From positions 83,197,953 to 83,261,952 of the forward strand of contig NC_092091.1 in the NCBI RefSeq assembly GCF_045679555.1: a stretch of DNA of 64,000 nucleotides. The letters run 5' to 3'. Shown piece after piece: positions 37,190 through 63,725 of the stretch. The translations under genes and the position numbers were made by a program. Each line of letters begins with the position of its first letter. The stretch's first letter is position 1. Source of the stretch: Salvelinus alpinus (Eukaryota; Chordata; Actinopteri; Salmoniformes; Salmonidae). The notes under the pieces are model-generated. The model was not told the DNA's origin, made no database searches, and saw only the letters and a program-made list of their open reading frames with translations.

Positions 37190-37511
37190 GGAGAAGGGAG
37201 GGGTGTAGATGATAGAGGTCTATGAGCTGAGTCAAGATCAACAGGTCCAACACTATAGTCACGAAGAGAGAGAAAGAGAGAGAGGGAGAGAGAGGGAGAG
37301 ATGAGCAGAACGAGAGGGAGGAGAGAGGAAGGGTGGGGAGAGCAGAGGACGGGAGGGGACAGAGGAGGGACTGGGAGAAAGGAGGGTAGGGGAGGGAGGA
37401 GGGTAACGGAGAGAAAATGAGAGGGGAGAGAGAGATATGTGGAGGAGAGAGAAAGAGAGAGAAGGGGAGGGAAGAGATGGGGGAGGGGAGAGAAATAGTA
37501 AAGGAAGGGCT
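37190..37511. repeat. GA-rich low-complexity tract
   Basis: GAGAGAGGGAGAG-type sequence leading into the satellite; no coding signal. Confidence 0.8.
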
Positions 37512-40500: not shown

Positions 40501-43500
40501 TAAGCCAGCCGGCTCCACTAGGGCCCTCTCAGCCAGCAGGCTCCACTAGGGCCCTCTCAGCCAGCCTGTTCCACTAGGGCCCTCTCAGCCAGCCTGCTCC
40601 ACTAGTGCCCTCTCAACCAGCCTGTTCCACTAGGGTCCTCTCAGCCAGCCGGCTCCACTAGGGCCCTCTCAGCCAGCCGGCTCCACTAGGGCCCTCTCAT
40701 TCAGCCGGCTCCACTAGGGCCCTCTCAGCCAGCCTGCTCCACTAGGGCCCTCTCAGCCAGCCTGTTCCACTAGGGCCCTCTCAGCCAGCCTGTTCCACTA
40801 GGGCCCTCTCAGCCAGCTGGCTCCACTAGGGCCCTCTCAGCCAGCCTGTTCCACTAGGGCCTTCTCAGCCAGCCTGTTCCACTAGGGCCCTCTCAGCCAG
40901 CCTGTTCCACTAGGGCCCTCTCAGCCAGCCTGTTCCACTAGGGCCCTCTCAGCCAGCCTGTTCCACTAGGGCCCTCTCAGCCAGCCTGTTCCACTAGGGC
41001 CCTCTCAGCCAGCCTGTCTCCACCAGGGCCCTCTCAGCCAGCCGGCTCCACCAGGACCCTCTCAGCCAGCAGGCTCCACTAGGGCCCTCTCAGCCAGCCT
41101 GCTCCACTAGGGCCCTCTCAGCCAGCCTGCTCCACTAGGGCCCTCTCAGCCAGCCGGCTCCACTAGGGCCCTCTCAGCCAGCCTGTTCCACTAGGGCCCT
41201 CTCAGCCAGCCTGTTCCACTAGGGCCCTCTCAGCCAGCCTGTTCCACTAGGGCCCTCTCAGCCAGCCGGCTCCACTAGGGCCCTCTCAGCCAGCCTGTTC
41301 CACTAGGGCCCTCTCAGCCAGCCTGTTCCACTAGGGCCCTCTCAGCCAGCCTGTTCCACTAGGGCCCTCTCAGCCAGCCGGCTCCACTAGGGCCCTCTCA
41401 GCCATTCGGCTCCACCAGGACCCTCTCAGCCAGCCGGCTCCACCAGGGCCCTCTCAGCCAGCCTGTTCCACCAGGGCCCTCTCAGCCAGCCTGTTCCACT
41501 AGGGCCCTCTCAGCCAGCCTGTTCCACTAGGGCCCTCTCAGCCAGCCTGTTCCACTAGGGCCCTCTCAGCCAGCCGGCTCCACTAGGGCCCTCTCAGCCA
41601 GCCTGTTCCACTAGGGCCCTCTCAGCCAGCCTGTTCCACTAGGGCCCTCTCAGCCAGCCTGTTCCACTAGGGCCCTCTCAGCCAGCCGGCTCCACTAGGG
41701 CCCTCTCAGCCATTCGGCTCCACCAGGACCCTCTCAGCCAGCCGGCTCCACCAGGGCCCTCTCAGCCAGCCTGTTCCACTAGGGCCCTCTCAGCCAGCCT
41801 GTTCCACTAGGGCCCTCTCAGCCAGCCTGTTCCACTAGGGCCCTCTCAGCCAGCTGGCTCCACTAGGGCCCTCTCAGCCAGCCTGTTCCACTAGGGCCCT
41901 CTCAGCCAGCCTGTTCCACTAGGGCCCTCTCAGCCAGCCTGTTCCACTAGGGCCCTCTCAGCCAGCCTGTCTCCACTAGGGCCCTCTCAGCCAGCCGGCT
42001 CCACCAGGACCCTCTCAGCCAGCAGGCTCCACTAGGGCCCTCTCAGCCAGCCGGCTCCACCAGGACCCTCTCAGCCAGCAGGCTCCACTAGGGCCCTCTC
42101 AGCCAGCCTGTTCCACTAGGGCCCTCTCAGCCAGCCTGTTCCACTAGGGCCCTCTCAGCCAGCTGGCTCCACTAGGGGCCTCTCAGCCAGCCTGTTCCAC
42201 TAGGGCCCTCTCAGCCAGCCTGTTCCACTAGGGCCCTCTCAGCCAGCCTGTTCCACTAGGGCCCTCTCAGCCAGCCTGTCTCCACCAGGGCCCTCTCAGC
42301 CAGCCGGCTCCACCAGGACCCTCTCAGCCAGCAGGCTCCACTAGGGCCCTCTCAGCCAGCCGGCTCCACCAGGACCCTCTCAGCCAGCAGGCTCCACTAG
42401 GGCCCTCTCAGCCAGCCTACTCCACTAGGGCCCTCTCAGCCAGCCTGTTCCACTAGGGCCCTCTCAGCCAGCCGGCTCCACTAGGGCCCTCTCAGCCAGC
42501 CTGTTCCACTAGGGCCCTCTCAGCCAGCCTGTTCCACTAGGGCCCTCTCAGCCAGCCTGTTCCACTAGGGCCCTCTCAGCCAGCCGGCTCCACTAGGGCC
42601 CTCTCAGCCATTCGGCTCCACCAGGACCCTCTCAGCCAGCCGGCTCCACCATGGCCCTCTCAGCCAGCCTGTTCCACTAGGGCCCTCTCAGCCAGCCTGT
42701 TCCACTTGGGCCCTCTCAGCCAGCCTGTTCCACTAGGGCCCTCTCAGCCAGCCGGCTCCACTAGGGCCCTCTCAGCCAGCCGGCTCCACTAGGGCCCTTT
42801 CAGCCAGCCTGTTCCACTAGGGCCCTCTCAACCAGCCTGTTCCACTAGGGCCCTCTCAGCCAGCCTGTTCCACTAGGGCCCTCTCAGCCAGCCTGTTCCA
42901 CTAGGGCCCTCTCAGCCAGCCGGCTCCACTAGGGCCCTCTCAGCCAGCCTGCTCCACTAGGGCCCTCTCAGCCAGCCTGTTCCACTAGGGCCCTCTCAGC
43001 CAGCCTGTTCCACTAGGGCCCTCTCAGCCAGCCTGTTCCACTTGGGCCCTCTCAGCCAGCCTGTTCCACTAGGGCCCTCTCAGCCAGCCGGCTCCACTAG
43101 GGCCCTCTCAGCCAGCCGGCTCCACTAGGGCCCTCTCAGCCAGCCGGCTCCACTAGGGCCCTCTCAGCCAGCCTGTTCCACTAGGGCCCTCTCAGCCAGC
43201 CTGTGCCACTAGGGCCCTCTCAGCCAGCCTGTTCCACTAGGGCCCTCTCAGCCAGCCTGTTCCACTAGGGCCCTCTCAGCCAGCCTGTTCCACTAGGGCC
43301 CTCTCAGCCAGCCGTCTCCACTAGGGCCCTCTCAGCCAGCCTGCTCCACTAGGGCCCTCTCAGCCAGCCTGCTCCACTAGGGCCCTCTCAGCCAGCCGGC
43401 TCCACTAGCGCCCTCTCAGCCAGCCTGTTCCACTAGGGCCCTCTCAGCCAGCCTGTTCCACTAGGGCCCTCTCAGCCAGCTGGCTCCACTAGGGCCCTCT

Positions 43501-43760
43501 CAGCCAGCCGGCTCCACTAGGGCCCTCTCAGCCAGCCGGCTCCACTAGGGCCCTCTCAGCCAGCCTGCTCCACTAGGGCCCTCTCAGCCAGCCGGCTCCA
43601 CTAGGGCCCTCTCAGCCAGCCGGCTCCACTAGGGCCCTCTCAGCCAGCCTGTTCCACTAGGGCCCTCTCAGCCAGCCTGCTCCACTAGGGCCCTCTCAGC
43701 CAGCCTGTTCCACTAGGGCCCTCTCAACCAGCCGGCTCCACTAGGGCCCTCTCAGCCAGT
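37512..43760. repeat. 28-bp satellite array B
   Basis: More than 200 copies of a 28-bp unit with core CCACTAGGGCCCTCTCAGCC and AGCCTGTT / AGCCGGCT variants. Each typical unit holds GGGCCC. Rare variants recur in the same order at 38430-39140 and about 39990-40700 (GCCAATCTG, CCTGTGCCAC, CTGCTACAC, CTCATTCAG). CATTCGGCTCCACCAGGACC blocks recur at 41402, 41711 and 42607. Both patterns indicate block duplication. The array includes a 100-N gap. Confidence 0.97.
38146..38245. other. assembly gap (100 N)
   Basis: Exactly 100 N within the 28-bp array; probably a placeholder of unknown size. Confidence 0.98.
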
Positions 43761-46478: not shown

Positions 46479-47063
46479 AGTGTGAACACGTCTGATTGGA
46501 CTAGATCCATGTTGAGGTGAGACACGTCTGATTGGACTAGATCCATGTTGAGGTGAGACACGTCTGATTGGACTAGATCCATGTTGAGGTGAGACGTCTG
46601 ATTGGACTAGATCCATGTTGAGGTGAGACACGTCTGATTGGACTAGATCCATGTTGAGGTGAGACACGTCTGATTGGACTAGATCCATGTTGAGGTGAGA
46701 CACGTCTGATTGGACTAGATCCATGTTGAGGTGAGACACGTCTGATTGGACTAGATCCATGTTGAGGTGAGACACGTCTGATTGGACTAGATCCATGTTG
46801 AGGTGAGACACGTCTGATTGGACTAGATCCATGTTGAGGTGAGACACGTTTGATTGGACTAGATCCATGTTGAGGTGAGACACGTCTGAATGGACTAGAT
46901 CCATGTTGAGGTGAGACACGTCTGATTAGACTAGATCCATGTTGAGGTGAGACACGTCTGATTGGACTCGATCCATGTTGAGGTGAGACACGTCTGATTA
47001 GACTAGATCCGTGTTGAGGTGAGACACGTCTGATTAGACTAGATCCATGTTGAGGTGAGACAG
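46479..47063. repeat. 36-bp minisatellite
   Basis: About 16 copies containing CTAGATCCATGTTGAGGTGA and GACACGTCTGATTGGA. The right-hand copy of the 8.6-kb unit begins inside this unit, directly after the gap at 55543-55642. Confidence 0.95.
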
Positions 47064-49160
47064 AATAGGGGGCAGAATAGGAGAAGAGAGGGGGGAGAAG
47101 AGGAGAGGGGGAGGAGAGGATAGGTGGAGAAGAGGAGAGGGGGGAGAGGTGGAGAAGAGGGGGGAGAATGGGAGAGGTGGAGAAGAGGAGAGGGGGATGA
47201 GAAGATAGGTGGAGAAGAGGAGAGGGGGAGAGGATGGGAGGAGAGGGGGAGAAGAGGAGAGGAGAGGGGGAGGAGAGGAGAGGGGGAGGAAGCAGAGAGG
47301 GGGGAGAAGAGGAGAGGGGAGAGAGGGAGAGGAGAGGGGGAGTAGAGGAGAGGGGCAGAATAGGAGAAGAGAAGAGGAGGTGGGGTGGAGAAGAGGTGAG
47401 GGGTAGAAGAGGAGAGGGGAGAGAAGAGGAGAGGGGAGAGGAGGAGAGGAGAGGGGGGAGAAGAGGAGAGGGGGAAAAAGAGGAGAAGAGAGGGGAGAAG
47501 AGGAGGGGGTTTTAGAAGAGGTGAGGGGTAGAAGAGGAGAGGGGAGAGAAGGGGAGAAGAGGAGAGGGGAAAGAAGGAGTGTAGAGGAGGGGGGGAGAAG
47601 ATGAGAGGGAGAAAAGAGGAGAGGGAGAAAAGAAGAGAGGGGAGAAGAGGAGAGGGGTGAAGAGGAGAGGAGAGGAGAAGTGGGAGAAGTGCGAGAAGGG
47701 GGAGGAGAGGGGGAGGAGAGTAGCGACGGAGAAGAGGACAGGGGGAGATGAGGAGAAGTGAGAAGAGAGGGGGAGGAGAGGGGGGAGTAGAGGAGAGGAG
47801 AGGGGAGAAGAGAGGGGAAGAGGAGAGAAAAGGGAAGAAGAGAAGAGGAGAGGAGATGAGATGAGTGGTAAAGAGGAGAGGGGAGAGGAGAGGAGAGGAT
47901 AGTGGAGAGGAGGAGAGAGGGGGTAAGAGGAGATGTGCAGAAGAAGAGTGGGGAGGAGGGGAGAGGAGAGGGGGGGAAAGATCAGTGGGGGAGAGGGAAG
48001 GGGAGAGGAGAGCGGGAAAGGATGAGGGGGAAAAGAGGAGGAGAAGATGGGAGAAGAGGAGAAGAGAGGGGGAGAAGAGGGGAGGGGAGAAGAGGAGAGA
48101 GGAGGGGAGAGGGGGAGGAGAGGAGAAGGGAAGAGGGGGAGAAGAGGGGGAATAAAGGGGGAGGAGGGGAGAGGGGAAGAGGATAATAGAGGGGGTGGGA
48201 GGGGGAGGAGAGGAGAGGTGGGGGCAGAAGAGGAGAGGAGAATGGGAGAAGAGAGGGGGAGAAGAGGAGAAGAGAGGGGGAGAAGAGGGGAGGGGGAGAA
48301 GAGGAGAGAGGAGGGGAGAGGGAGAGGAGAAGGGAAGAGGGGGAATAAAGGGGGAGGAGAGGAGAGGGAAAGAGGATAATAGAGGGGGTGGGAGGGGGAG
48401 GAGAGGAGAGGTGGGGGCAGAAGAGGAAAAAAGAGGGGGAGAGGAGGATTCGAGAGGAGAAGAGGAGAAGAGAGAAGAGGAGAGGAGAAGAGAGGGGGAA
48501 GAGGAGAGAGGGGGGAGAAGAGGAGAAGAAAGGGGGAGAAGATGAGAAGAGAGGGGGGAAGAGGAGAGAGGGGGGAGAAGAGGAGACAGTGGAGAAGAGT
48601 AGAGTGGATAGAAGAGACGATTATAATTGGGGAGAAGAGGGGAGAGAAGAGGAGTGGGGGGGAAGAGGAGAATGGGAGAAGAAAGGGGGAGAAGGGAGAG
48701 AGGGGAGAAGAGGAGATGAGATTAGGAGAAGAGAGAGAGGGAGATGAGAAGAAAGGTGGAGGAGAGGAGAGGAGAGGAGAGGGGAGAGGAGTGGAGAGGA
48801 GAGGGGGTAGGAGAGGAGAGGGGGTAGGAGAGGAGAGGAGAGGGGGGGGAAGAGGGAATGGGAGAGGAGAGGAGAAGGGGAGGAGAGGAGATTGGGAGAA
48901 GAGGGAATGGGAGAGGAGAGGAGAAGGGGGGGAGAGGGAATGGGAGAGGAGAGGAGAGGAGAAGGGGGAGGAGAGGAGAGGAGAGAGGGGAGTAGATGGG
49001 AAAGGAGAGGGGGAGGAGAGGGGGAGAAGGCGAGAGGGTGAGAAGATGAGGGGGAGAAGAGGAGGAGAAGATGGGAGAAGAGGAGAAGGGGGAGGAGAGG
49101 AGAGGGGGGAGAAGAGGAGGATGAGAGAAGGGGAGAGGAAGAGAAGAGAGGGGAGAGGAG
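47064..49160. repeat. 2.1-kb polypurine tract (copy A)
   Basis: Almost pure G/A on the plus strand (GGGGGAGAAGAGGAGAGG and variants). ORFs on either strand here are compositional. Confidence 0.95.
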
Positions 49161-49591
49161 GTACTGTTTGTCTCCCACCGTTCCACTCAGAGGACTCTAC
49201 CTTCTGTTATCAAGTGGGCGTTTCCACCATATTTAGTGTATCAGTCATTTCAGTGAAGGGAACAAGTGCACACTTTAGGAGAAAGGAGAGATATTTGGGA
49301 CAATGCTTCCTTCTAGTCTACAGTCCTGCGTCTGTGACACCAGATTTTCGCCTAGTGGACATAAGAGGAACTGTCCTGTCAGTGTGTTTTTACTGCTGGC
49401 TCAAAACAACACATGACCTGCATACAGGATATGATTCATGTGTGAGTACTAAAAGCATATGAATATAGTATATTATAGTATATTTATTATATATGTGGGT
49501 CTGATAAGTAAACACTCTTAATGTTTGCTGTTTTATCACTCAGAAGAACATTGGGCACTATGTAACCAAACACATGTGAAACCTCATGATA
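49161..49591 (+). promoter_or_regulatory. Conserved segment upstream of SRCR gene A; possible first exon and donor
   Basis: Unique 431-bp island between a purine tract and a pyrimidine array, present three times in the window (also 57751-58181, and inverted at 35689-36118). It contains a consensus-like donor GATTCATGT/GTGAGTAC at 49441/49442, which would open an intron running to the acceptor at 50847. Its role as promoter or leader exon is inference from position and conservation. No signal peptide was found in it. Confidence 0.4.
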
Positions 49592-49649
49592 AGCCTGTCT
49601 TCCCATCACATCATGAAAGGTCATGTTGATGTTCATTTAACCTCTGTCT

Positions 49650-50847
49650 CTCTCTTCCTCTGACTCCTCCCTTTCTCCTCTGTCTCTCTCTTCCTCTGAC
49701 TCCTCCCTTTCTCCTCTGTCTCTCTCTTCCTCTGACTCCTCCCTTTCTCCTCTGTCTCTCTCTTTCTCTGACTCCTCCCTTTCTTCTCTGTCTCTCTCTT
49801 CCTCTGACTCCTCCCTTTCTCCTCTGTCTCTCTCTTCCCATGACTCCTCCCTTTCTCCTCTGTCTCTCTCTTCCTCTGACTCCTCCCTTTCTCCTCTGTC
49901 TCTCTCTTCCTCTGACTCCTCCCTTTCTCCTCTGTCTCTCTCTTCCTCTGACTCCTCCCTTTCTCCTCTGTCTCTCTCTTCCTCTGACTCCTCCCTTTCT
50001 CCTCTGTCTCTCTCTTCCTCTGACTCCTCCCTTTCTCCTCTGTCTCTCTCTTCCTCTGACTCCTCCCTTTCTCCTCTCTCTCTCTTCCTCTGACTCCTCC
50101 CTTTCTCCTCTGTCTCTCTCTTTCTCTGACTCCTCCCTTTCTTCTCTGTCTCTCTCTTCCTCTGACTCCTCCCTTTCTCCTCTGTCTCTCTCTTTCTCTG
50201 ACTCCTCACTTTCTTCTCTTTCTCTCTCTTCCTCTGACTCCTCCCTTTCTCCTCTGTCTCTCTCTTCCTCTGACTCCTCCCTTTCTCCTCTGTCTCTCTC
50301 TTTCTCTGTTTCTCTCTTTCTCCTCTGTCTCTCTCTTCCTCTGACTCCTCCCTTTCTCCTCTGTCTCTCTCTTTCTCTGTCTCTCTCTTTCTCCTCTGTC
50401 TCTCTCTTCCTCTGACTCCTCCCTTTCTCCTCTGTTTCTCTCTTCCTCTGACTCCTCCCTTTCCCCTCTTTCTCTCTCTTCCTCTGACTCCTCCCTTTCT
50501 CCTCTGTCTCTCTCTTCCTCTGACTCCTCCCTTTCTCCTTTGTCTCTCTCTTCCTCTGACTCCTCCCTTTCTCCTCTGTCTCTCTCTTCCTCTGACTCCT
50601 CCCTTTCTCCTCTGTCTCTCTCTTCCTCTGACTCCTCCCTTTCTCCTCTGTCTCTCTCTCTCTCTGTCTCTCTCTTTCTCCTCTGTCTCTCTCTTCCTCT
50701 GACTCCTCCCTTTCTCCTCTGTCTCTCTCTTCCTCTGACTCCTCCCTTTCTCCTCTGTCTCTCTCTTCTTCTGACTCCTCCCTTTCTCCTCTGTCTCTCT
50801 GTCTCTCTTTCTCTCTCTTTCTCCTCTGTCTCTCTCTTTCTCCTCAG
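49650..50847 (+). repeat. 36-bp pyrimidine minisatellite forming a splice-acceptor tract (copy A)
   Basis: About 33 units of 36 bp containing TCTGTCTCTCTCTTCCTC and TGACTCCTCCCTTTCTCC. Each unit has CTGAC, which fits the branch-point pattern yUnAy, followed by pyrimidines. I see no AG dinucleotide from about 49620 until the CAG at 50845-50847 that precedes the next exon. Confidence 0.9.
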
Positions 50848-50877
50848 ATCTTCAAGCTCAAAGCGTCAGTCCACCAG
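50848..50877 (+). CDS. SRCR gene A, 30-nt linker exon
   Basis: Acceptor TTTCTCCTCAG, donor GTAGGT. In phase 1 it encodes LQAQSVSPP, leading into AELSVRL of SRCR1. It would be the mature N-terminus if a signal exon lies upstream. Identical in copy B. Confidence 0.6.
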
Positions 50878-53800
50878 GTAGGTAGAGTATAAATCTACAG
50901 TGATTATAGCAGTTCAATATTAGTCAACTTTATTTTTCCCACATGGAGAAATTCATGTGTCCATACAAACAATTCTAAAACCCAATAACAAGTAGTGTTT
51001 TATGGACCTACTAATACTTGTCAACCACAAAGCATTACTGCTGTTAGAATAACAGAATCACTGTCATCATCTGTCCTCACCACTGTGTTTTCCTCTCTGC
51101 TGTTTACAGCTGAACTCTCAGTCAGACTGGTGAATGGGACCACTTCCTGTTCTGGGACAGTGGAAGTCTTCTACATAGGAGAGTGGTTGGGTCTATGTAT
51201 TGAGTGGTGGTGGAGAATGATGATAGAGGCTAAGGTTGTGTGTAGAGAGCTGGACTGTGGGAATGTCGAAGCTGAATCTAGAGGACCTCTGGTTGAAGAG
51301 GGAAGAAGAGGAATCAGACTATATAGGAGATGCAGGGGAGATGAGTCTTCTATTAGACATTGTGACATCATAGGAAGACCTGGTGTCTGTGATGGTGAAT
51401 ATTATCATCATGTGACCTGTTCAGGTAAGAGACTGGTCATATTGACAGATTTATTTATACATTATACAATATTACCATGTATCATGTTTTATGTGTTTTT
51501 ATTTCATTTAAATAGAGGGAGAGATGTCAGATGTATTTAAACATTATATTTGTGTTTGTCATATTGGTTTATGGGAGATGTTCATGGGCAGATCATTGTA
51601 GTTCAGATGGTACTGAAGTGAAGCTGCCTGATGGATGTCCAGCTGTTTATTTTCTATAAAGTGAAGTGAACTTATTCCTGTCTCCTGCCTGCATTATTCC
51701 CAACCCGATCCTGAGTGACTAAGAACCCATTTCTACCTCTTACAGTATCAAACATAGCAAACTACAATCTTTTATCCAACATATTTGTGTTTAGTCCTTG
51801 ACAGTGTCATCAACAAAACTGATTGAATGTTCAACCAACTCTTTTTCTCCAGAGTCTGTGCGGCTTGTGGATGGAGCTGGTCTCTGCTCTGGGAGAGTGG
51901 AGGTGAAGTCCAATCAGTCCTGGGCCTCAGTGTGTGAAGCTGACTTTGACCGGCAGGATGCAGAGGTAGTCTGTGGGGAGCTTGGCTGTGGGGCTCCTGC
52001 AGCTCTACAGGGGGGGCTCTATGGAGGAGGTGAGGGTCAGACCTGGGATAAAGAGTTCCAGTGTAAAGGCAAAGAGTCCCTTCTCCTGGACTGTGACACC
52101 TCAGACAGAAAACACAACACCTGCCTACCTGGTAATGCTGTTGGACTCACCTGCTCAGGTAAGAAACAGTTTGACAACCAATCAACATTGTTTCTCACCT
52201 GGAGTGAAGAATATGAGAGACAATATAGGTGTGTTTTAGTGAGAAAATAGTAAGATTACTGTCTCTCTCTTTTCTTTTCTCAGAGCCTGATGATGTGAGG
52301 CTGGTGGGAGGAGGCAGTCGCTGTGCTGGTGGAGTGGAGTGGTACGACCAGGGAGAGTGGAGGACTGTGGGAACTGAGGACGAGGACCAGGAGGATGTAG
52401 CTGCAGTAGTGTGTAGACAGCTGGGTTGTGGATCCACTGTTTCAGTACGACCTGGAAACACCACTAGAGAGATTGGTGTTTCCTGTTCTGGGTCTGAGTC
52501 TTCACTGAGGGAGTGTTCCAGAATGTATGATCTCCGTCCTGGACTCACAGTGATCTGCTCAGGTAAGAACAAGATACACTATATGGCCAAAGGTATGTGG
52601 ACATATGTGGATTCGGCTATTTCAGCCACACATGTTGCTGACAGGTGTATAAAATTGAGTACACAGCCATGCAATCTCCATAGACAAACATTACCAGTAG
52701 AATGGCCTTACTGAAGAGCTCAGTGACTTAACGTGGCACGTCTAGGAGCAACAACGGCTCAGCCGCGAAGTGGTAGACAACACAAGCTCACAGAACGGAC
52801 CGCCGAGTGCTGAACCACGTAGAGCGTAAAAATAATCCTCTGTTGTAAAACTCACTGCTGAGTTCCACATACTTTTGTCCATGTATTATATCTCCTTCCT
52901 GGACTCACAGTGATCTGCTCAGGAAATATCAACATATTATAATTATATTCAACTGATTTCCTTCATTCATACAACTTCCTCTGCACCTCTCATGATGACT
53001 GTTTAGCTTGTCAGTCTGCTTTACAAAATATATCACTCAGTCAAGTAGGAATCAAATACAACTTAAATATCCCAGAATGTTTTGTATTTGAGTGTTATCT
53101 CAGTGAACGTCTCTACTCACTACCACTGTCACATGTCATGTTATTGTCATATCTAAATGAGGAAAGTAGTTGAGGAGCTACGTTTTCTTTTTCTCTCCTC
53201 TTGTTCCAGATGTCCTGCTTAAGCCTGATATCAACATATGTTGTCTCAGTGACTGTAGGCCCACTACTCATGTTGCCCTGTGAGGGAGGGTGGCTGGCAC
53301 TGTTACATGCTGATGTTATTGTCATATCTATAGGAAACTAGTTGAAGAGGTTTTTCTTCTTCTCTTTTATTGTTACAGATCTCCTGGTCCAGCCTGATAT
53401 CTCCCTGACTGACTCAATGGGAGGGGTCTCCAGGGGCCACCAGGGGCCCGAGGTGTTCAGGGGCTACAGCTTCACCATCACCTGCTCCACTCAGCCACAG
53501 TACCCAGGAGGCTCCTTCCTCCTCACGTTCACCGGCTCCAACAGAACCCAGACCCAGCCAGCTGTCAATCACTCTGCTGCCTTCCTCTTCCCTGCTGCAG
53601 ATGACTCCCACCAAGGGAACTACAGCTGTGTTTATGACAATTATGTTTTCTCTCATAACTTCTCCTCTGAGAGTGAGCTCCTCTCCCTCACCATCACAGG
53701 TAACTGAACATGAACCAGACTTATAACTTTGTCATTGACAGATTTCCCACAGATCTATGTGATGATGATCAGTCCCCTCATCAAAGGTGTTTCTGTTTGC

Positions 53801-54177
53801 AGCCTCTCCTCTGCCAGCCTTCATCATCAGACACGTTGTAGTGCTGCTGCTCCTACTGACAGCCATCACCACCTCCTACCTGTACTACAAGGTAAAGACA
53901 TTTACTCAGACGTTACAAGTCATTTAAACTGGAGGGAGAGGGTGAGGGGGAGAGGGAGGGAGAGGGTGAGGAGGAGAGGGAGGGAGAGAGAATGGAGATA
54001 CTAGAGAGTAAATGTCTGACTGTTGGTGCTGTGTCTCCCTAGCCCACCAGGAGGCAGAAGAGAGTGAACAGGGTGAGCAGCATGGATCTTGATGTCAATG
54101 CCATGGAGATGGTCTCTCTGAGCTCCAGAGCTGAAGCTGGACCGGGAGAGGAGAGAGCAGCCCAGGGGACGGAGTAG
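50848..54177 (+). CDS. SRCR/Ig membrane receptor gene, copy A
   Basis: Seven recognised exons: 50848-50877, 51110-51424, 51853-52158, 52284-52562, 53379-53699, 53803-53891 and 54043-54177 (TAG). All junctions are GT-AG and phases agree. The product has three SRCR domains, one Ig-like domain, a transmembrane helix and a 44-residue tail. SRCR1 and SRCR2 have eight cysteines and one exon each, as in group B SRCR proteins (CD5/CD6/CD163/DMBT1 relatives). The signal-peptide exon was not found, so the start is missing. The tail (PTRRQKRVNRVSS, AMEMVSLSSRAEAGPG) has no Tyr motif. Ligand unknown; an immune role is inferred from the family. The 3' UTR runs to AATAAA at 55421. Confidence 0.85.
51110..51424 (+). 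CDS. SRCR gene A, SRCR domain 1
   Basis: Phase 1-1 exon: ELSVRLVNGTTSCSGTVEV ... EAKVVCRELDCGN ... HHVTCSG. Eight cysteines. It carries two replacements relative to copy B (Arg/Ser and His/Gln). Confidence 0.88.
51853..52158 (+). CDS. SRCR gene A, SRCR domain 2
   Basis: Phase 1-1: ESVRLVDGAGLCSGRVEVK, SWASVCEADFDRQDAEVVC, GELGCGAPAAL, GLTCSG. All eight group-B cysteines; identical to copy B. One N-glycosylation site (NQS) is present. Confidence 0.92.
52284..52562 (+). CDS. SRCR gene A, SRCR domain 3
   Basis: Phase 1-1: DDVRLVGGGSRCAGGVEWY, EWRTVGTEDEDQEDVAAVVC, RQLGCGSTVSV, ECSRMYD, LTVICSG. Only six cysteines: those at positions 2 and 7 of the group-B pattern are missing. The C-terminal third differs strongly from copy B. 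Confidence 0.88.
52575..52887. mobile_element. Non-autonomous Tc1-like remnant in SRCR intron (copy A)
   Basis: TACACTATATGGCCAAAGGT at the left and TCCACATACTTTTGTCCATG at the right are termini of a salmonid Tc1-like family. About 310 bp, with no transposase. Also in copy B (61171-61483), so it predates their separation. Confidence 0.75.
52891..52923 (+). pseudogene. duplicated 3' end of the SRCR3 exon
   Basis: TCCTGGACTCACAGTGATCT plus GCTCAGG repeats the end of the SRCR3 exon, but the donor GTAAG is replaced by GAAAT. It sits next to the Tc1 remnant. Confidence 0.75.
53210..53283 (+). pseudogene. degenerate duplicate Ig-exon start (copy A)
   Basis: After an acceptor-like CTTGTTCCAG it reads DVLLKPDINI, similar to DLLVQPDISL of the Ig exon, and soon meets TGA. 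Probably a dead second Ig exon; the same in copy B (61806-61879). Confidence 0.65.
53379..53699 (+). CDS. SRCR gene A, Ig-like domain
   Basis: Phase 1-1: DLLVQPDISL, YSFTITCSTQ, SFLLTFTGSNRTQ, DDSHQGNYSCVY, LSLTITG. The Cys pair (TITC...YSCVY) and D-S-x-x-G-x-Y-x-C motif define an Ig fold. Three N-glycosylation sites are plausible (NRT, NHS, NFS). Confidence 0.9.
53803..53891 (+). CDS. SRCR gene A, transmembrane exon
   Basis: Encodes ASPLPAFIIRHVVVLLLLL and TAITTSYLYYK, one hydrophobic helix. Phase 1 to 0. Confidence 0.88.
54043..54177 (+). CDS. SRCR gene A, cytoplasmic exon
   Basis: Starts PTRRQKRVNRVSS (stop-transfer basic stretch) and ends EERAAQGTE before TAG. Confidence 0.88.
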   Translation, partial: PTRRQKRVNRVSSMDLDVNAMEMVSLSSRAEAGPGEERAAQGTE

Positions 54178-54373
54178 GAGTAGAATGAAGCTGACCCTAC
54201 ATGCTGATCTTAGATCAGTTTTGTGTTTTAAATCGATGGTCAGCAGTGGACTGGTGGTTCTAATTTTAATAACAAGTTCAGAATTAGTTTATCTTTCTAG
54301 AACCTTGGAAGGAATCTAAAAGGAGTGACTGCAACCACCATTATTCCTTTTAGTTTGGTTTTTACCACCAGAG

Positions 54374-54946
54374 AAACATGGGGTTCTGGGTAACATGGGG
54401 TTCAGGGTAACATGGGGTTCAGGGTAACATGGGGTTCTGGGTAACATGGGGTTTTGGATAACATGGGGTTCAGGGTAACATGGGGTTCAGGGTAACATGG
54501 GGTTTGAGTAACATGGGGTTTTGGTGACATGGGGTTTTGGTAACATGGGGTTTGGGGTAACATGGGGTTCTGGGTAACATGGGGTTTTGGGTAACATGGG
54601 GTTTTGCTAACATGGGATATTGTGTAACATGGGGTTTTGGTAACATGGGGTTTTGGTACATTTACATTTAAGTCATTTAGCAGACGCTCTTATCCAGAGC
54701 GACTTACAAATTGGAAAGTTCATACATATTCATCCTGGTCCCCCCGTGGGGAATGAACCCACAACCCTGGCGTTGCAAGCGCCATGCTCTACCAACTGAG
54801 CCACACGGGACCACCATGGTAACATGGTGTTTTGGGTAACATGGGGTTCTGGGTAACATGGGGTTTGGGTAACATGAGGTTTTGGTAACATGGGGTTTTG
54901 GGTAACATGGGGTTCTGGGTAACATGGGGTTTGAGGTAACATGGGG
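54374..54946. repeat. G-rich 17-19 bp minisatellite (locus 2), split by a SINE
   Basis: AACATGGGGTTCTGGGTA and variants in the SRCR gene A 3' UTR or flank; the same repeat family as 27454-28000. Confidence 0.93.
54656..54815 (-). mobile_element. tRNA-derived SINE with V-SINE-like tail
   Basis: On the minus strand: GTGTGGCTCAGTTGGTAGAG (A box), GGGTTGTGGGTTCATTCCCC (B box), then TAAGTCGCTCTGGATAAGAG and CGTCTGCTAAATGAC. Inserted within the G-rich minisatellite. Confidence 0.88.
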
Positions 54947-55026
54947 TTTAAATTATTTTAAGCGAGTAGCTCAATTACATCTATTTTGTGTTCCAGAATG
55001 TATTGATTGTTGCTTTTGTCTTCATG

Positions 55027-55155
55027 TCTTTATCTTATTTAGTGTCTCTTAGATTCTTTATCTTATTTAGTGTCTCTTAGATTCTTTATCTTATTTAGTG
55101 TCTCTTGGATTCTTTGTCTTATTTAGTGTCTCTTAGATTCTTTATCTTATTTAGT
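55027..55155. repeat. 31-bp short repeat
   Basis: About four copies of TATCTTATTTAGTGTCTCTT plus AGATTCTT in the 3' flank. Copy B has a shortened unit near 63690. Confidence 0.88.
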
Positions 55156-55420
55156 GTTCTAGAAAACCCCATGTGTATCAAGAATGGTCCACCACCCAAA
55201 GGACATCCAGCCAACTGGACACAAGTGTAGGAAGCTTTGGAGTCAACATATTCTGAGGTCTAAAGGTGGGGGTTTAACTCAATATCAGGAAGGTGTTCCT
55301 AATGTTTTGTCCACTCAGTGAATAGTTGTGAGTTCAGATGATGTTGCTGTTATGTTATTTACTCTTTCCAGATAAAGACCTGTTGTTCTCTAAACTGTCA
55401 TGTTTTCACTGAATGCTTTT

Positions 55421-55426
55421 AATAAA
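55421..55426 (+). terminator. polyadenylation signal, SRCR gene A
   Basis: AATAAA about 1.2 kb after the stop codon. Likely but not proven site. Confidence 0.5.
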
Positions 55427-55542
55427 CTCACAGGCTGTCAGTCTTGTGTGATTTCCCTCCAGTTTTTTATTTCCCAGTGGTCAAGGGGTTATTGATCATT
55501 AGTGATTCCATCAGTGACACCAGACATCAGCTCAGCCCAGAG

Positions 55543-55642
55543 NNNNNNNNNNNNNNNNNNNNNNNNNNNNNNNNNNNNNNNNNNNNNNNNNNNNNNNNNN
55601 NNNNNNNNNNNNNNNNNNNNNNNNNNNNNNNNNNNNNNNNNN
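55543..55642. other. assembly gap (100 N) between the two SRCR units
   Basis: Exactly 100 N. Sequence to the right begins inside the 36-bp repeat that starts the unit, so the real distance is unknown. Confidence 0.98.
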
Positions 55643-55654
55643 TGTTGAGGTGAG

Positions 55655-57750
55655 ACAGAATAGGGGGCAGAATAGGAGAAGAGAGGGGGGAGAAGAGGAG
55701 AGGGGGAGGAGAGGATAGGTGGAGAAGAGGAGAGGGGGGAGAGGTGGAGAAGAGGGGGAGAATGGGAGAGGTGGAGAAGAGGAGAGGGGGATGAGAAGAT
55801 AGGTGGAGAAGAGGAGAGGGGGAGAGGATGGGAGGAGAGGGGGAGAAGAGGAGAGGAGAGGGGGAGGAGAGGAGAGGGGGAGGAAGCAGAGAGGGGGAGA
55901 AGAGGAGAGGGGAGAGAGGGAGAGGAGAGGGGGAGTAGAGGAGAGGGGCAGAATAGGAGAAGAGAAGAGGAGGTGGGGTGGAGAAGAGGTGAGGGGTAGA
56001 AGAGGAGAGGGGAGAGAAGAGGAGAGGGGAGAGGAGGAGAGGAGAGGGGGAGAAGAGGAGAGGGGAAAAAGAGGAGAAGAGAGGGGAGAAGAGGAGGGGG
56101 TTTTAGAAGAGGTGAGGGGTAGAAGAGGAGAGGGGAGAGAAGGGGAGAAGAGGAGAGGGGAAAGAAGGAGTGTAGAGGAGGGGGGAGAAGATGAGAGGGA
56201 GAAAAGAGGAGAGGGAGAAAAGAAGAGAGGGGAGAAGAGGAGAGGGGTGAAGAGGAGAGGAGAGGAGAAGTGGGAGAAGTGCGAGAAGGGGGAGGAGAGG
56301 GGGAGGAGAGTAGCGACGGAGAAGAGGACAGGGGGAGATGAGGAGAAGTGAGAAGAGAGGGGGAGGAGAGGGGGGAGTAGAGGAGAGGAGAGGGGAGAAG
56401 AGAGGGGGAGGAGAGGGGGGAGTAGAGGAGAGAAAAGGGAAGAAGAGAAGAGGAGAGGAGATGAGATGAGTGGTAAAGAGGAGAGGGGAGAGGAGAGGAG
56501 AGGATAGTGGAGAGGAGGAGAGAGGGGGTAAGAGGAGATGTGCAGAAGAAGAGTGGGGAGGAGGGGAGAGGAGAGGGGGGAAAGATCAGTGGGGGAGAGG
56601 GAAGGGGAGAGGAGAGCGGGAAAGGATGAGGGGGAAAAGAGGAGGAGAAGATGGGAGAAGAGGAGAAGAGAGGGGGAGAAGAGGGGAGGGGAGAAGAGGA
56701 GAGAGGAGGGGAGAGGGGGAGGAGAGGAGAAGGGAAGAGGGGGAGAAGAGGGGGAATAAAGGGGGAGGAGGGGAGAGGGGAAGAGGATAATAGAGGGGGT
56801 GGGAGGGGGAGGAGAGGAGAGGTGGGGGCAGAAGAGGAGAGGAGAATGGGAGAAGAGAGGGGGAGAAGAGGAGAAGAGAGGGGGAGAAGAGGGGAGGGGG
56901 AGAAGAGGAGAGAGGAGGGGAGAGGGAGAGGAGAAGGGAAGAGGGGGAATAAAGGGGGAGGAGAGGAGAGGGAAAGAGGATAATAGAGGGGGTGGGAGGG
57001 GGAGGAGAGGAGAGGTGGGGGCAGAAGAGGAAAAAAGAGGGGGAGAGGAGGATTCGAGAGGAGAAGAGGAGAAGAGAGAAGAGGAGAGGAGAAGAGAGGG
57101 GAAGAGGAGAGAGGGGGAGAAGAGGAGAAGAAAGGGGGAGAAGATGAGAAGAGAGGGGGGAAGAGGAGAGAGGGGGAGAAGAGGAGACAGTGGAGAAGAG
57201 TAGAGTGGATAGAAGAGACGATTATAATTGGGGAGAAGAGGGGAGAGAAGAGGAGTGGGGGGAAGAGGAGAATGGGAGAAGAAGGGGAGAAGGGAGAGAG
57301 GGGAGAAGAGGAGATGAGATTAGGAGAAGAGAGAGAGGGAGATGAGAAGAAAGGTGGAGGAGAGGAGAGGAGAGGAGAGGGGAGAGGAGTGGAGAGGAGA
57401 GGGGGTAGGAGAGGAGAGGGGGTAGGAGAGGAGAGGGGGGGAAGAGGGAATGGGAGAGGAGAGGAGAAAGGGGAGGAGAGGAGATTGGGAGAAGAGGGAA
57501 TGGGAGAGGAGAGGAGAAGGGGGGAGAGGGAATGGGAGAGGAGAGGAGAGGAGAAGGGGGAGGAGAGGAGAGGAGAGAGGGGAGTAGATGGGAAAGGAGA
57601 GGGGAGGAGAGGGGGAGAAGGCGAGAGGGTGAGAAGATGAGGGGGAGAAGAGGAGGAGAAGATGGGAGAAGAGGAGAAGGGGGAGGAGAGGAGAGGGGGA
57701 GAAGAGGAGGATGAGAGAAGGGGAGAGGAAGAGAAGAGAGGGGAGAGGAG
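55655..57750. repeat. 2.1-kb polypurine tract (copy B)
   Basis: Same as 47064-49160 apart from G-run length changes and an extra unit of about 30 bp near 56405-56430. Confidence 0.95.
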
Positions 57751-58181
57751 GTACTGTTTGTCTCCCACCGTTCCACTCAGAGGACTCTACCTTCTGTTAT
57801 CAGGTGGGCGTTTCCACCATATTTACTGTATCAGTCATTTCAGTGAAGGGAACAAGTGCACACTTTAGGAGAAAGGAGAGATATTTGGGACAATGCTTCC
57901 TTCTAGTCTACAGTCCTGCGTCTGTGACACCAGATTTTCGCCTAGTGGACATAAGAGGAACTGTCCTGTCAGTGTGTTTTTACTGCTGGCTCAAAACAAC
58001 ACATGACCTGCATACAGGATATGATTCATGTGTGAGTACTAAAAGCATATGAATATAGTATATTATAGTATATTTATTATATATGTGGGTCTGATAAGTA
58101 AACACTCTTAATGTTTGCTGTTTTATCACTCAGAAGAACATTGGGCACTATGTAACCAAACACATGTGAAACCTCATGATA
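57751..58181 (+). promoter_or_regulatory. Conserved segment upstream of SRCR gene B
   Basis: Near-identical to 49161-49591, with the same potential donor GTGAGT at 58032. Confidence 0.4.
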
Positions 58182-58239
58182 AGCCTGTCTTCCCATCACA
58201 TCATGAAAGGTCATGTTGATGTTCATTTAACCTCTGTCT

Positions 58240-59443
58240 CTCTCTTCCTCTGACTCCTCCCTTTCTCCTCTGTCTCTCTCTTCCTCTGACTCCTCCCTTT
58301 CTCCTCTGTCTCTCTCTTCCTCTGACTCCTCCCTTTCTCCTCTGTCTCTCTCTTTCTCTGACTCCTCCCTTTCTTCTCTGTCTCTCTCTTCCTCTGACTC
58401 CTCCCTTTCTCCTCTGTCTCTCTCTTCCCATGACTCCTCCCTTTCTCCTCTGTCTCTCTCTTCCTCTGACTCCTCCCTTTCTCCTCTGTCTCTCTCTTCC
58501 TCTGACTCCTCCCTTTCTCCTCTGTCTCTCTCTTCCTCTGACTCCTCCCTTTCTCCTCTGTCTCTCTCTTCCTCTGACTCCTCCCTTTCTCCTCTGTCTC
58601 TCTCTTCCTCTGACTCCTCCCTTTCTCCTCTGTCTCTCTCTCTTCCTCTGACTCCTCCCTTTCTCCTCTCTCTCTCTTCCTCTGACTCCTCCCTTTCTCC
58701 TCTGTCTCTCTCCTTTCTCTGACTCCTCCCTTTCTTCTCTGTCTCTCTCTTCCTCTGACTCCTCCCTTTCTCCTCTGTCTCTCTCTTTCTCTGACTCCTC
58801 ACTTTCTTCTCTTTCTCTCTCTTCCTCTGACTCCTCCCTTTCTCCTCTGTCTCTCTCTTCCTCTGACTCCTCCCTTTCTCCTCTGTCTCTCTCTTTCTCT
58901 GTTTCTCTCTTTCTCCTCTGTCTCTCTCTTCCTCTGACTCCTCCCTTTCTCCTCTGTCTCTCTCTTTCTCTGTCTCTCTCTTTCTCCTCTGTCTCTCTCT
59001 TCCTCTGACTCCTCCCTTTCTCCTCTGTTTCTCTCTCTTCCTCTGACTCCTCCCTTTCCCCTCTTTCTCTCTCTTCCTCTGACTCCTCCCTTTCTCCTCT
59101 GTCTCTCTCTTCCTCTGACTCCTCCCTTTCTCCTTTGTCTCTCTCTTCCTCTGACTCCTCCCTTTCTCCTCTGTCTCTCTCTTTCCTCTGACTCCTCCCT
59201 TTCTCCTCTGTCTCTCTCTTCCTCTGACTCCTCCCTTTCTCCTCTGTCTCTCTCTCTCTCTGTCTCTCTCTTTCTCCTCTGTCTCTCTCTTCCTCTGACT
59301 CCTCCCTTTCTCCTCTGTCTCTCTCTTCCTCTGACTCCTCCCTTTCTCCTCTGTCTCTCTCTTCTTCTGACTCCTCCCTTTCTCCTCTGTCTCTCTGTCT
59401 CTCTTTCTCTCTCTTTCTCCTCTGTCTCTCTCTTTCTCCTCAG
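58240..59443 (+). repeat. 36-bp pyrimidine minisatellite (copy B)
   Basis: Same CTGAC-plus-pyrimidine units as copy A, with small indels (for example extra TC or C at 58642, 58711 and 59034). AG-free up to CAG at 59441-59443. Confidence 0.9.
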
Positions 59444-62400
59444 ATCTTCAAGCTCAAAGCGTCAGTCCACCAGGTAGGTAGAGTATAAATCTACAGTGAT
59501 TATAGCAGTTCAATATTAGTCAACTTTATTTTTCCCACATGGAGAAATTCATGTGTCCATACAAACAATTCTACAACCCAATAACAAGTAGTGTTTTATG
59601 GACCTACTAATACTTGTCAACCACAAAGCATTACTGCTGTTAGAATAACAGAATCACTGTCATCATCTGTCCTCACCACTGTGTTTTCCTCTCTGCTGTT
59701 TACAGCTGAACTCTCAGTCAGACTGGTGAATGGGACCACTTCCTGTTCTGGGACAGTGGAAGTCTTCTACATAGGAGAGTGGTTGGGTCTATGTATTGAG
59801 TGGTGGTGGAGAATGATGATAGAGGCTAAGGTTGTGTGTAGAGAGCTGGACTGTGGGAATGTCGAAGCTGAATCTAGAGGACCTCTGGTTGAAGAGGGAA
59901 GAAGAGGAATCAGACTATATAGGAGTTGCAGGGGAGATGAGTCTTCTATTAGACAGTGTGACATCATAGGAAGACCTGGTGTCTGTGATGGTGAATATTA
60001 TCATCATGTGACCTGTTCAGGTAAGAGACTGGTCATATTGACAGATTTATTTATACATTATACAATATTACCATGTATCATGTTTTATGTGTTTTTATTT
60101 CATTTAAATAGAGGGAGAGATGTCAGATGTATTTAAACATTATATTTGTGTTTGTCATATTGGTTTATGGGAGATGTTCATGGGCAGATCATTGTAGTTC
60201 AGATGGTACTGAAGTGAAGCTGCCTGATGGATGTCCAGCTGTTTATTTTCTATAAAGTGAAGTGAACTTATTCCTGTCTCCTGCCTGCATTATTCCCAAC
60301 CCGATCCTGAGTGACTAAGAACCCATTTCTACCTCTTACAGTATCAAACATAGCAAACTACAATCTTTTATCCAACATATTTGTGTTTAGTCCTTGACAG
60401 TGTCATCAACAAAACTGATTGAATGTTCAACCAACTCTTTTTCTCCAGAGTCTGTGCGGCTTGTGGATGGAGCTGGTCTCTGCTCTGGGAGAGTGGAGGT
60501 GAAGTCCAATCAGTCCTGGGCCTCAGTGTGTGAAGCTGACTTTGACCGGCAGGATGCAGAGGTAGTCTGTGGGGAGCTTGGCTGTGGGGCTCCTGCAGCT
60601 CTACAGGGGGGGCTCTATGGAGGAGGTGAGGGTCAGACCTGGGATAAAGAGTTCCAGTGTAAAGGCAAAGAGTCCCTTCTCCTGGACTGTGACACCTCAG
60701 ACAGAAAACACAACACCTGCCTACCTGGTAATGCTGTTGGACTCACCTGCTCAGGTAAGAAACAGTTTGACAACCAATCAACATTGTTTCTCACCTGGAG
60801 TGAAGAATATGAGAGACAATATAGGTGTGTTTTAGTGAGAAAATAGTAAGATTACTGTCTCTCTCTTTTCTTTTCTCAGAGCCTGATGATGTGAGGCTGG
60901 TGGGAGGAGGCAGTCGCTGTGCTGGTGGAGTGGAGTGGTACGACCAGGGAGAGTGGAGGACTGTGGGAACTGAGGACGAGGACCAGGAGGATGTAGCTGC
61001 AGTAGTGTGTAGACAGCTGGGTTGTGGCTCCACTGTTTCAGTACTTCCTGGAAACACCACTGGAGAGATTGAAGTTTACTGTTCTGGGTCTGAGTCTTCA
61101 CTGAGGGAGTGTTCCAGAATGTATGATCTCTCTCCTGGACTCACAGTGATCTGCTCAGGTAAGAACAAGATACACTATATGGCCAAAGGTATGTGGACAT
61201 ATGTGGATTCGGCTATTTCAGCCACACATGTTGCTGACAGGTGTTTAAAATTGAGTACACAGCCATGCAATCTCCATAGACAAACATTACCAGTAGAATG
61301 GACTTACTGAAGATCTCAGTGACTTAACGTGGCACGTCTAGGAGCAACAACGGCTCAGCCGCGAAGTGGTAGACAACACAAGCTCACAGAACGGACCGCC
61401 GAGTGCTGAACCACGTAGAGCGTAAAAATAATCCTCTGTTGTAAAACTCACTGCTGAGTTCCACATACTTTTGTCCATGTATTATATCTCCTTCCTGGAC
61501 TCACAGTGATCTGCTCAGGAAATATCAACATATTATAATTATATTCAACTGATTTCCTTCATTCATACAACTTCCTCTGCACCTCTCATGATGACTGTTT
61601 AACTTGTCAGTCTGCTTTACAAAATATATCACTCAGTCAAGTAGGAATCAAATACAACTTAAATATCCCAGAATGTTTTGTATTTGAGTGTTATCTCAGT
61701 GAACGTCTCTACTCACTACCACTGTCACATGTCATGTTATTGTCATATCTAAATGAGGAAAGTAGTTGAGGAGCTACGTTTTCTTTTTCTCTCCTCTTGT
61801 TCCAGATGTCCTGCTTAAGCCTGATATCAACATATGTTGTCTCAGTGACTGTAGGCCCACTACTCATGTTGCCCTGTGAGGGAGGGTGGCTGGCACTGTT
61901 ACATGCTGATGTTATTGTCATATCTATAGGAAACTAGTTGAAGAGGTTTTTCTTCTTCTCTTTTATTGTTACAGATCTCCTGGTCCAGCCTGATATCTCC
62001 CTGACTGACTCAATGGGAGGGGTCTCCAGGGGCCACCAGGGGCCCGAGATGTTCAGGGGCTACAACTTCACCATCACCTGCTCCACTCAGTCACAGTACC
62101 CAGGAGGCTCCTTCCTCCTCACGTTCACCGGCTCCAACAGAACCCAGACCCAGCCAGCTGTCAATCACTCTGCTGCCTTCCTCTTCCCTGCTGCAGATGA
62201 CTCCCACCAAGGGAACTACAGCTGTGTTTATGACAATTATGTTTTCTCTCATAACTTCTCCTCTGAGAGTGAGCTCCTCTCCCTCACCATCACAGGTAAC
62301 TGAACATGAACCAGACTTATAACTTTGTCATTGACAGATTTCCCACAGATCTATGTGATGATGATCAGTCCCCTCATCAAAGGTGTTTCTGTTTGCAGCC

Positions 62401-62773
62401 TCTCCTCTGCCAGCCTTCATCATCAGACACGTTGTAGTGCTGCTGCTCCTACTGACAGCCATCACCACCTCCTACCTGTACTACAAGGTAAAGACATTTA
62501 CTCAGACGTTACAAGTCATTTAAACTGGAGGGAGAGGGTGAGGGGGAGAGGGAGGGAGAGGGTGAGGAGGAGAGGGAGGGAGAGAGAATGGAGATACTAG
62601 AGAGTAAATGTCTGACTGTTGGTGCTGTGTCTCCCTAGCCCACCAGGAGGCAGAAGAGAGTGAACAGGGTGAGCAGCATGGATCTTGATGTCAATGCCAT
62701 GGAGATGGTCTCTCTGAGCTCCAGAGCTGAAGCTGGACCGGGAGAGGAGAGAGCAGCCCAGGGGACGGAGTAG
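59444..62773 (+). CDS. SRCR/Ig membrane receptor gene, copy B
   Basis: Exons 59444-59473, 59706-60020, 60449-60754, 60880-61158, 61975-62295, 62399-62487 and 62639-62773 match copy A at a constant shift of 8596. The frame is intact. Compared with A there are ten replacements and one silent codon: SRCR1 Arg to Ser and His to Gln; SRCR3 Arg to Leu, Arg to Gly, Gly to Glu, Ser to Tyr and Arg to Ser; Ig domain Val to Met, Ser to Asn and Pro to Ser. SRCR2, transmembrane and tail exons look identical. As in copy A, no signal-peptide exon is recognised. It may be a true paralogue or the other allele placed beside copy A. Confidence 0.85.
61171..61483. mobile_element. Non-autonomous Tc1-like remnant in SRCR intron (copy B)
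   Basis: Same insertion as 52575-52887, with three base differences seen. Confidence 0.75.
61806..61879 (+). pseudogene. degenerate duplicate Ig-exon start (copy B)
   Basis: Matches 53210-53283, with the same premature TGA. Confidence 0.65.
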
Positions 62774-62969
62774 GAGTAGAATGAAGCTGACCCTACATGC
62801 TGATCTTAGATCAGTTTTGTGTTTTAAATCGATGGTCAGCAGTGGACTGGTGGTTCTAATTTTAATAACAAGTTCAGAATTAGTTTATCTTTCTAGAACC
62901 TTGGAAGGAATCTAAAAGGAGTGACTGCAACCACCATTATTCCTTTTAGTTTGGTTTTTACCACCAGAG

Positions 62970-63527
62970 AAACATGGGGTTCTGGGTAACATGGGGTTCA
63001 GGGTAACATGGGGTTCAGGGTAACATGGGGTTCTGGGTAACATGGGGTTTTGGATAACATGGGGTTCAGGGTAACATGGGGTTCAGGGTAACATGGGGTT
63101 TGAGTAACATGGGGTTTTGGTGACATGGGGTTTTGGTAACATGGGGTTTGGGGTAACATGGGGTTCTGGGTAACATGGGGTTTTGCTAACATGGGATATT
63201 GTGTAACATGGGGTTTTGGTAACATGGGGTTTTGGTACATTTACATTTAAGTCATTTAGCAGACGCTCTTATCCAGAGCGACTTACAAATTGGAAAGTTC
63301 ATACATATTCATCCTGGTCCCCCCGTGGGGAATGAACCCACAACCCTGGCGTTGCAAGCGCCATGCTCTACCAACTGAGCCACACGGGACCACCATGGTA
63401 ACATGGTGTTTTGGGTAACATGGGGTTCTGGGTAACATGGGGTTTGGGTAACATGAGGTTTTGGTAACATGGGGTTTTGGGTAACATGGGGTTCTGGGTA
63501 ACATGGGGTTTGAGGTAACATGGGGTT
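62970..63527. repeat. G-rich minisatellite, copy B
   Basis: Counterpart of 54374-54946 with one unit fewer near 63170. Confidence 0.93.
63237..63396 (-). mobile_element. tRNA-derived SINE with V-SINE-like tail, copy B
   Basis: Same insertion as 54656-54815, so it precedes the duplication. Confidence 0.88.
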
Positions 63528-63606
63528 TAAATTATTTTAAGCGAGTAGCTCAATTACATCTATTTTGTGTTCCAGAATGTATTGATTGTTGCTTTTGTCT
63601 TCATGT

Positions 63607-63725
63607 CTTTATCTTATTTAGTGTCTCTTAGATTCTTTATCTTATTTAGTGTCTCTTAGATTCTTTATCTTATTTAGTGTCTCTTAGATTCTTTATCTTA
63701 TTTAGATTCTTTATCTTATTTAGTG
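63607..63725. repeat. 31-bp short repeat, copy B
   Basis: Counterpart of 55027-55155; one unit lacks AGTGTCTCTT near 63700. Confidence 0.85.

Follow-up and report, generated by a model that had tools for sequence, protein, structure and literature searches.

The window, that is, the whole stretch of 64,000 nucleotides analysed here, contains an SRCR gene in which a short linker exon is preceded by a long array of 36-bp tandem units running up to its acceptor. A near-identical second copy lies downstream. The features are given below in window coordinates.

35533–35601, minus strand: signal-peptide coding stretch (MKTAIVLMVLLFCLSGAWTQGES), behind an inverted promoter-like segment (35688–36303)
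47079–49160, plus strand: polypurine tract 5′ of the promoter-like segment
49164–49600, plus strand: promoter-like segment, joining the leader directly in the first copy
49592–49640, plus strand: conserved leader 5′ of the array (end ...GGTCATGTTGATGTTCATTTAA), including the last AG before the acceptor (49618–49619)
49641–50842, plus strand: 36-bp tandem array, unit CTCTGTCTCTCTCTTCCTCTGACTCCTCCCTTTCTC, ∼33.6 copies, 28 CTGAC, no AG
50771–50775, plus strand: 3′-most CTGAC, with its A at 50774, 73 nt from the last intron base
50846–50847, plus strand: acceptor AG (tctcctcag)
50848–50877, plus strand: linker exon of 30 nt (fits phase 1-1), followed by a gtaggt donor
51110–51424, plus strand: SRCR domain exon 1
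51849–52160, plus strand: second SRCR domain
52283–52564, plus strand: third SRCR domain (approximate ends)
53393–53704, plus strand: Ig domain (approximate ends)
58231–59438, plus strand: array of the second copy (near-identical duplicate of 8.4 kb), with four insertions totalling 6 nt and zero substitutions relative to the first
59442–59473, plus strand: acceptor AG (59442–59443) and linker exon (59444–59473) of the second copy

The array and the gene around it

The first-pass annotation had described ∼1.2 kb of 36-bp units without AG up to the acceptor and had named a script count of AG as a check. The count gave zero AG over 1,226 nt (49620–50845), flanked by the AG at 49618–49619 and the acceptor itself, and TRF, run on the window, returned an array at 49641–50842 with a period of 36, 33.6 copies and 93% matches, in full agreement with that description. 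The same annotation had placed a CTGAC in each unit; 28 copies are indeed present, but some of the ∼33.6 units lack the motif. The number of YNYURAY heptamers in this array is also 28. Besides AG, the dinucleotides TA, GG, GC and AA are absent over its whole length.

With 33.6 head-to-tail copies of a 36-bp unit, the array is a minisatellite (unit of 10–60 bp). In its sequence features it also fits the class of long-AGEZ acceptors, having an AG-free zone (AGEZ) well above the threshold of 100 nt and a YNYURAY heptamer with an adjacent pyrimidine tract beyond 40 nt, the nearest being at 73 nt. No A is present between the last CTGAC and the acceptor in this copy, the nearest one 5′ of the acceptor being that at 50774. 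Therefore, provided that this acceptor functions and that branching takes place at an A, the array or the sequence before it would contain the branch, a statement deduced from sequence and not from splicing observed. We also considered the array as coding sequence and rejected it: a repeat of this kind would have long open frames on either strand anyway, and those of the plus strand that pass through the linker exon fail to join the SRCR frame.

The domain names are from Pfam. The three SRCR domains (PF00530) scored 53.9, 78.6 and 46.7 bits, all above the gathering score of 26.1, and the membership of the gene in the SRCR superfamily stands; its reading frame works if the linker exon is of phase 1-1.

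The 5′ end of the gene is less complete. At the locus L038, a signal-peptide exon stands between the promoter-like segment and the array, and the linker exon follows the array; the promoter-like segment precedes the signal-peptide exon also in the inverted copy of both elements in the window (35533–36303, minus strand). At 9 of the 35 loci with a readable junction (both window copies and seven others), the promoter-like segment directly abuts the leader, with no signal-peptide exon in between. Upstream of the first window copy, on its strand, no match to the known signal-peptide exon was observed, and the gene seems incomplete; this negative covers the known exon only, and the gene may have an unrelated first exon. 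The gene may thus be 5′-truncated. As the signal-peptide exon is absent upstream, this acceptor is a putative one.

A 32-nt pattern for the start of the signal-peptide exon (up to three mismatches) matched 22 places in the genome, 21 of them on C6, and only 2 of 58 C6 acceptors have such an exon in the 20 kb upstream of them on their own strand. For 18 of the 21 starts on C6 (77.4–85.4 Mb), the first linker-exon acceptor met downstream belongs to the other strand. A scan for signal-like exons running from an ATG to a donor, upstream in 22 loci, yielded no conserved candidate; some upstream blocks are common to several loci and could be assigned to no exon. On the minus strand at 34523–35567, the 3′ part of the signal-peptide exon has apparently been amplified into a minisatellite of ∼53 bp that is interspersed with (CTGT)n; this may be a second gene signal turned tandem repeat in the window.

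The tested part of the first SRCR exon is open in 20 of 22 loci, with early stops in L022 and L030; L034, counted as open, has lost the acceptor AG of this exon. Over the first 21 codons (18 loci), the changes at the three codon positions number 25, 15 and 14. There is no third-position excess and hence no sign of purifying selection in this part.

The segments 47048–55431 and 55643–64000 align at 98.85% with 27 mismatches, and a 100-N gap (55543–55642) in front of the second copy separates these near-identical 8.4-kb copies, which may be two haplotypes rather than two genes. Nine of their differences lie within ∼105 bases of the third SRCR domain (52432–52536 versus 61028–61132), a clustering that would look as if produced by gene conversion. 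The second copy has its own polypurine tract (55662–57751), both tracts being ∼2 kb, and another 100-N gap is located at 38146–38245.

The window is rich in tandem arrays. Very long minisatellites occupy 1–6111, 9325–19078 and 37509–43759 (units of 28, 27 and 28 bp), and an inverted repeat of ∼594 bp (97.6%) is formed by 6320–6913 and 7306–7898. The open frames at 33391–34211 resemble what we take to be a Tc1-type transposase. The longest AG-free stretch in the window (29262–30840) belongs to an unrelated minisatellite with a 49-bp unit and no known acceptor; its array, at 29272–30838, has 32 copies at 98% and, being AG-free over 1,578 nt, is longer than the 36-bp array. An AG-free array is thus not rare per se; what goes beyond chance is the place of the 36-bp array and its recurrence.

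The acceptor family and its copy-number series

We searched one 2.37-Gb assembly for further copies. A pattern made of the acceptor and the 30-nt exon (up to three mismatches) matched 61 places, 58 of them on C6; C31, C18 and C12 have a single match each. A DNA search with the acceptor, linker exon and first SRCR exon gave 72 candidates, and all the 40 that were scored lie on C6 between 83.2 and 85.95 Mb. Similarly, a pattern of the leader and array start (one mismatch) had 44 matches, none of them outside C6; at 43 of these, the acceptor lies downstream on the same strand within 1.5 kb. The exact 33-nt unit core has 339 occurrences genome-wide; 334 of them are inside arrays read directly 5′ of the acceptor family, and among the matches listed none lies on C1–C5. 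The repeated splice-site pattern is real, and it is unusual.

The tctcctcag acceptor and the gtaggt after 30 nt are kept in 40 of 40 copies, although the acceptor was part of the search patterns, so that its retention is partly built in. Exceptions in detail were seen: the exon of L039 ends in CCAT, and TGAG replaces TCAG at the acceptor of L057. By eye, a GT is missing downstream of the exon in the matches on C12 and C18, and at L068 (C6, 78.3 Mb) the leader and acceptor flank a pyrimidine tract interrupted by inserted sequence.

Arrays were read at 48 acceptors, of which 40 came from the window and a first set of loci and 8 from a second set. Two further acceptors gave short reads, with AGEZs of 72 and 101 nt and one CTGAC each (by eye); in all, 54 of the 61 acceptors were read. 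In 45 of the 48 arrays, the leader is present and sets the start of the array independently of AG. These 45 arrays (19,925 of the 21,081 bp counted over 48) range from 39 to 1,210 bp with a median of 363, carry 1–31 CTGAC and contain no AG; the AG-free zone reaches 1,232 nt among the copies. The leaderless arrays of L032, L042 and L046 were bounded at the first AG (680, 65 and 411 nt), so AG is absent there by construction, and they were excluded from the claims about AG. Two equal arrays (996 bp, 26 CTGAC), those of L051 and L052, lie 0.6 Mb apart on opposite strands, which suggests a recent inverted duplication.

Within one assembly, the paralogs thus range from 1 to 31 CTGAC. At the lower end of this series, L035 has a single unit, in which the branch-like A precedes the end of the intron by 19 nt, and resembles an ordinary acceptor, and L030 has one CTGAC with its A at 36 nt. 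The outgroup copy on C31, L065, has a matching leader and acceptor, and its 30-nt exon lies behind an SRCR-like exon (exon by eye). It holds a single CTGAC 29 nt from the end and is AG-free over 162 nt, with no 36-bp array (array by eye). The single-unit paralogs together with this one-CTGAC outgroup argue that the acceptor came first and that the amplification of the branch-point-like and pyrimidine region came later, and on a plain reading of these sequences the acceptor would predate the amplification. The earlier suggestion that a branch-point-like motif and its pyrimidine tract had been copied in tandem gains support from the same copies.

Absence of AG and the branch-point-like motif

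The first-pass annotation had further proposed that AGs stayed excluded while the units were copied. We compared the arrays with a null in which each change relative to the unit was moved randomly among like bases. The set comprised 41 non-redundant leader-bearing arrays (W2, which is the second window copy, and L052, L061, L063, L032, L042 and L046 were dropped from the 48), with 428 changes in 17,391 aligned bases. We observed 0 AG against 3.74 expected, and zero was reached in 1.7% of 3,000 shuffles (p = 0.017). When each distinct context was counted once, the expectation fell to 2.24 AG, with a probability of 0.11 for none. Moreover, CG, GC and CA lie further below expectation than AG, which indicates that the null is imperfect. 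An earlier shuffle of 39 arrays, without W2 and with the leaderless three included (0 AG against 4.7, p = 0.0115), is superseded by the 41-array set. We also dropped the argument that AG, as the sole absent dinucleotide of the 16, is a signal of selection; AA occurs only three times and GG twice in the 41 arrays, and several of the AA and GG in the 48-array count stem from L032 and L046, where the zone includes sequence other than the array.

As a yardstick, we used neutral array-strands having AG-free units. The scan covered the window and 20 loci, and the qualifying arrays were all in the window. Ten such strands contain 24 AG against 22.4 expected, or 15 against 15.1 (n = 7) when three rows from duplicated segments are removed; AG is absent from 3 of the 10, including one for which 3.1 were expected. 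In the acceptor arrays, the substitution rate is 7.0% in the last 100 nt versus 1.2% elsewhere, and these 3′ tails are AG-free too. Three patterns for AG-bearing unit variants matched nothing in the C6 cluster; outside it, they had 3, 2 and 1 matches.

Hence, the absence of AG from the arrays stands, whereas the proposal that selection kept it excluded fares less well: the deficit seen against the full expectation shrinks in the count by distinct contexts and is exceeded by that of three other dinucleotides. The evidence for exclusion by selection is weak, and there is good evidence that the absence is mostly inherited from an AG-free founder unit.

Of 45 copies, just 13 have their nearest YNYURAY heptamer at 18–44 nt, the other 32 having it beyond 44 nt, so that a position near the acceptor is not conserved; even when every A is considered, 23 of the 45 have none within 44 nt. 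Within the motif (39 arrays), the T at unit position 19 has no changes, while the G and the A, with 35 and 33, respectively, belong to the unit positions that vary more than most. Degeneracy is highest in the 3′ tails, next to the acceptor, and in the 39 arrays we observed no sign that individual units are protected. These observations would fit redundancy of the units, and would fit equally well with their not being used.

Origin of the array and comparison with known systems

Starting from the observed anatomy, the copy-number series, the single-unit and outgroup states and the 45 arrays without AG, we consider it probable that a minisatellite was born in a 3′ splice site and that its AG-free unit let it grow while splicing kept scanning to the same AG. 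At the acceptor of the linker exon in the SRCR gene family, the CUCUGAC heptamer and its pyrimidine tract would have been duplicated head to tail, and the unit number would have spread from 1 to ∼31 during gene multiplication. An array of AG-free units can lengthen right up to the acceptor and yet present no rival 3′ splice site, so that the scan most probably still ends at the original AG. A few of the 3′-most heptamers would then serve as a distant branch point, the remaining units being passengers. Use of the acceptor, a branch A located inside the array and the redundancy of most units are inferences. By analogy with PNCTR and the distant-branch-point exons (PMC6224606, PMC1431707), involvement of PTB is plausible.

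The main competitor, to which we would give a substantial but less than even chance, is that the array is purely a passenger: a pyrimidine-rich minisatellite that arose by chance at the end of a partly dead intron, with splicing neither helped nor constrained by it, and lacking AG only through an AG-free founder and young, homogenised units. At 1.2% substitution outside the last 100 nt, just 2.2–3.7 AG are expected, so zero is not a strong result; the 1,578-nt AG-free minisatellite shows that such a run can occur away from any known acceptor in the window, and 3 of 10 neutral array-strands have escaped AG as well, one of them despite 3.1 expected. What weighs against it is that the neutral strands as a whole gain AG at the null rate (24 versus 22.4; 15 versus 15.1) and the acceptor arrays have none, even in the 3′ tails with their 7.0% substitution. 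That the arrays are an assembly artefact is, in contrast, hardly credible: the 100-N gap between the window copies and the small insertions that alone distinguish their arrays would suit such an origin, but array loci are found by the dozen over 2.7 Mb, with many different lengths.

The number of branch-point/pyrimidine units might also act as a rheostat that sets exon inclusion via occupancy by PTB or U2AF. The spread from 1 to 31 units among the paralogs would provide the range for this; CU-rich repeats in the human PNCTR, as reported, bind several PTBP1 molecules (PMC6224606), and the distant-branch-point exons with experimental analysis by 2006 were, in the account of Gooding et al., all PTB-regulated (PMC1431707). 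Given that the nearest heptamer is at 18–44 nt in so few copies (13 of 45) and that individual units show no sign of protection, we regard this as unlikely. Its extension to an immune-receptor rheostat, in which selected AG-free modules (1–31) and the PTB level would jointly set receptor output, is a little more doubtful still. We attach similarly low probability to pairing between the polypurine tract and the array, in the transcript or as triplex DNA, which would drive rearrangement or hide the acceptor. A purine run of at least 200 nt lies upstream of the array in 20 of 22 large loci, and at four loci the calculated purine–array duplexes average −129 to −144 kcal/mol per 120 nt, compared with −30 to −41 for other sequence. 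Shuffled purine still gives −120 to −135, so composition accounts for most of this effect; in addition, the tract lies 5′ of the promoter-like segment in the first window copy and in the inverted copy, and may therefore not be transcribed with the array.

One genome holds dozens of copies of one acceptor, with branch-point-like and pyrimidine modules from a single ordinary one to about thirty. This is a natural series for how far the spliceosome scans from branch point to AG, and for whether extra branch points help, hurt or have no effect. It also suggests a rule, namely that a repeat with an AG-free unit can expand up to an acceptor unseen. In the open-licence literature on splicing and repeats we found no description of a tandem-amplified branch-point region, and in that on the gene family no paper on the SRCR gene cluster on C6.

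Repeat length at an acceptor is known to matter from the (TG)m(T)n tract of a CFTR intron, where it alters exon inclusion, an effect that has been measured. Unlike the SRCR arrays, the CFTR tract is a simple repeat without repeated branch points.

The closest relatives are the distant-branch-point exons of Gooding et al. 2006, whose branch-point consensus, YNYURAY, we used here. In their data as reported, 165 of 67,334 human exons have an AGEZ of at least 150 nt, the tested examples reach 288 and 380 nt, and exon 11 of the Fugu PTB gene has 590 nt; branch points 100–400 nt from the acceptor are known, and the Fugu one is predicted at −566 (PMC1431707). The arrays share with these exons a long AG-free zone, a YNYURAY heptamer with a pyrimidine tract and a candidate branch beyond 40 nt; they differ in reaching up to 1,232 nt, in consisting of near-identical tandem units and in having branch points that are putative. 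In OGDH, the report describes a distant branch-point cluster with a 'megaPPT', mapped lariats and an AGEZ of ∼280 nt; fish were also studied, and AGs were termed 'AGEZ spoilers' (PMC7969005). An extended pyrimidine tract, an AG-free zone and several distant branch points (candidates in the arrays) are common to both, and the main text of that report mentions simple repeats for sunfish without the terms 'tandem repeat' or 'minisatellite' (PMC7969005). PNCTR resembles the arrays in its CU-rich repeats with many PTB-type sites, binding by the SRCR arrays being putative, and differs, as described, in being a long non-coding RNA that binds PTBP1, not an acceptor (PMC6224606). Long AG-free acceptors were already known one by one, and the tandem-amplified form described here is a variant of the long-AGEZ acceptor.
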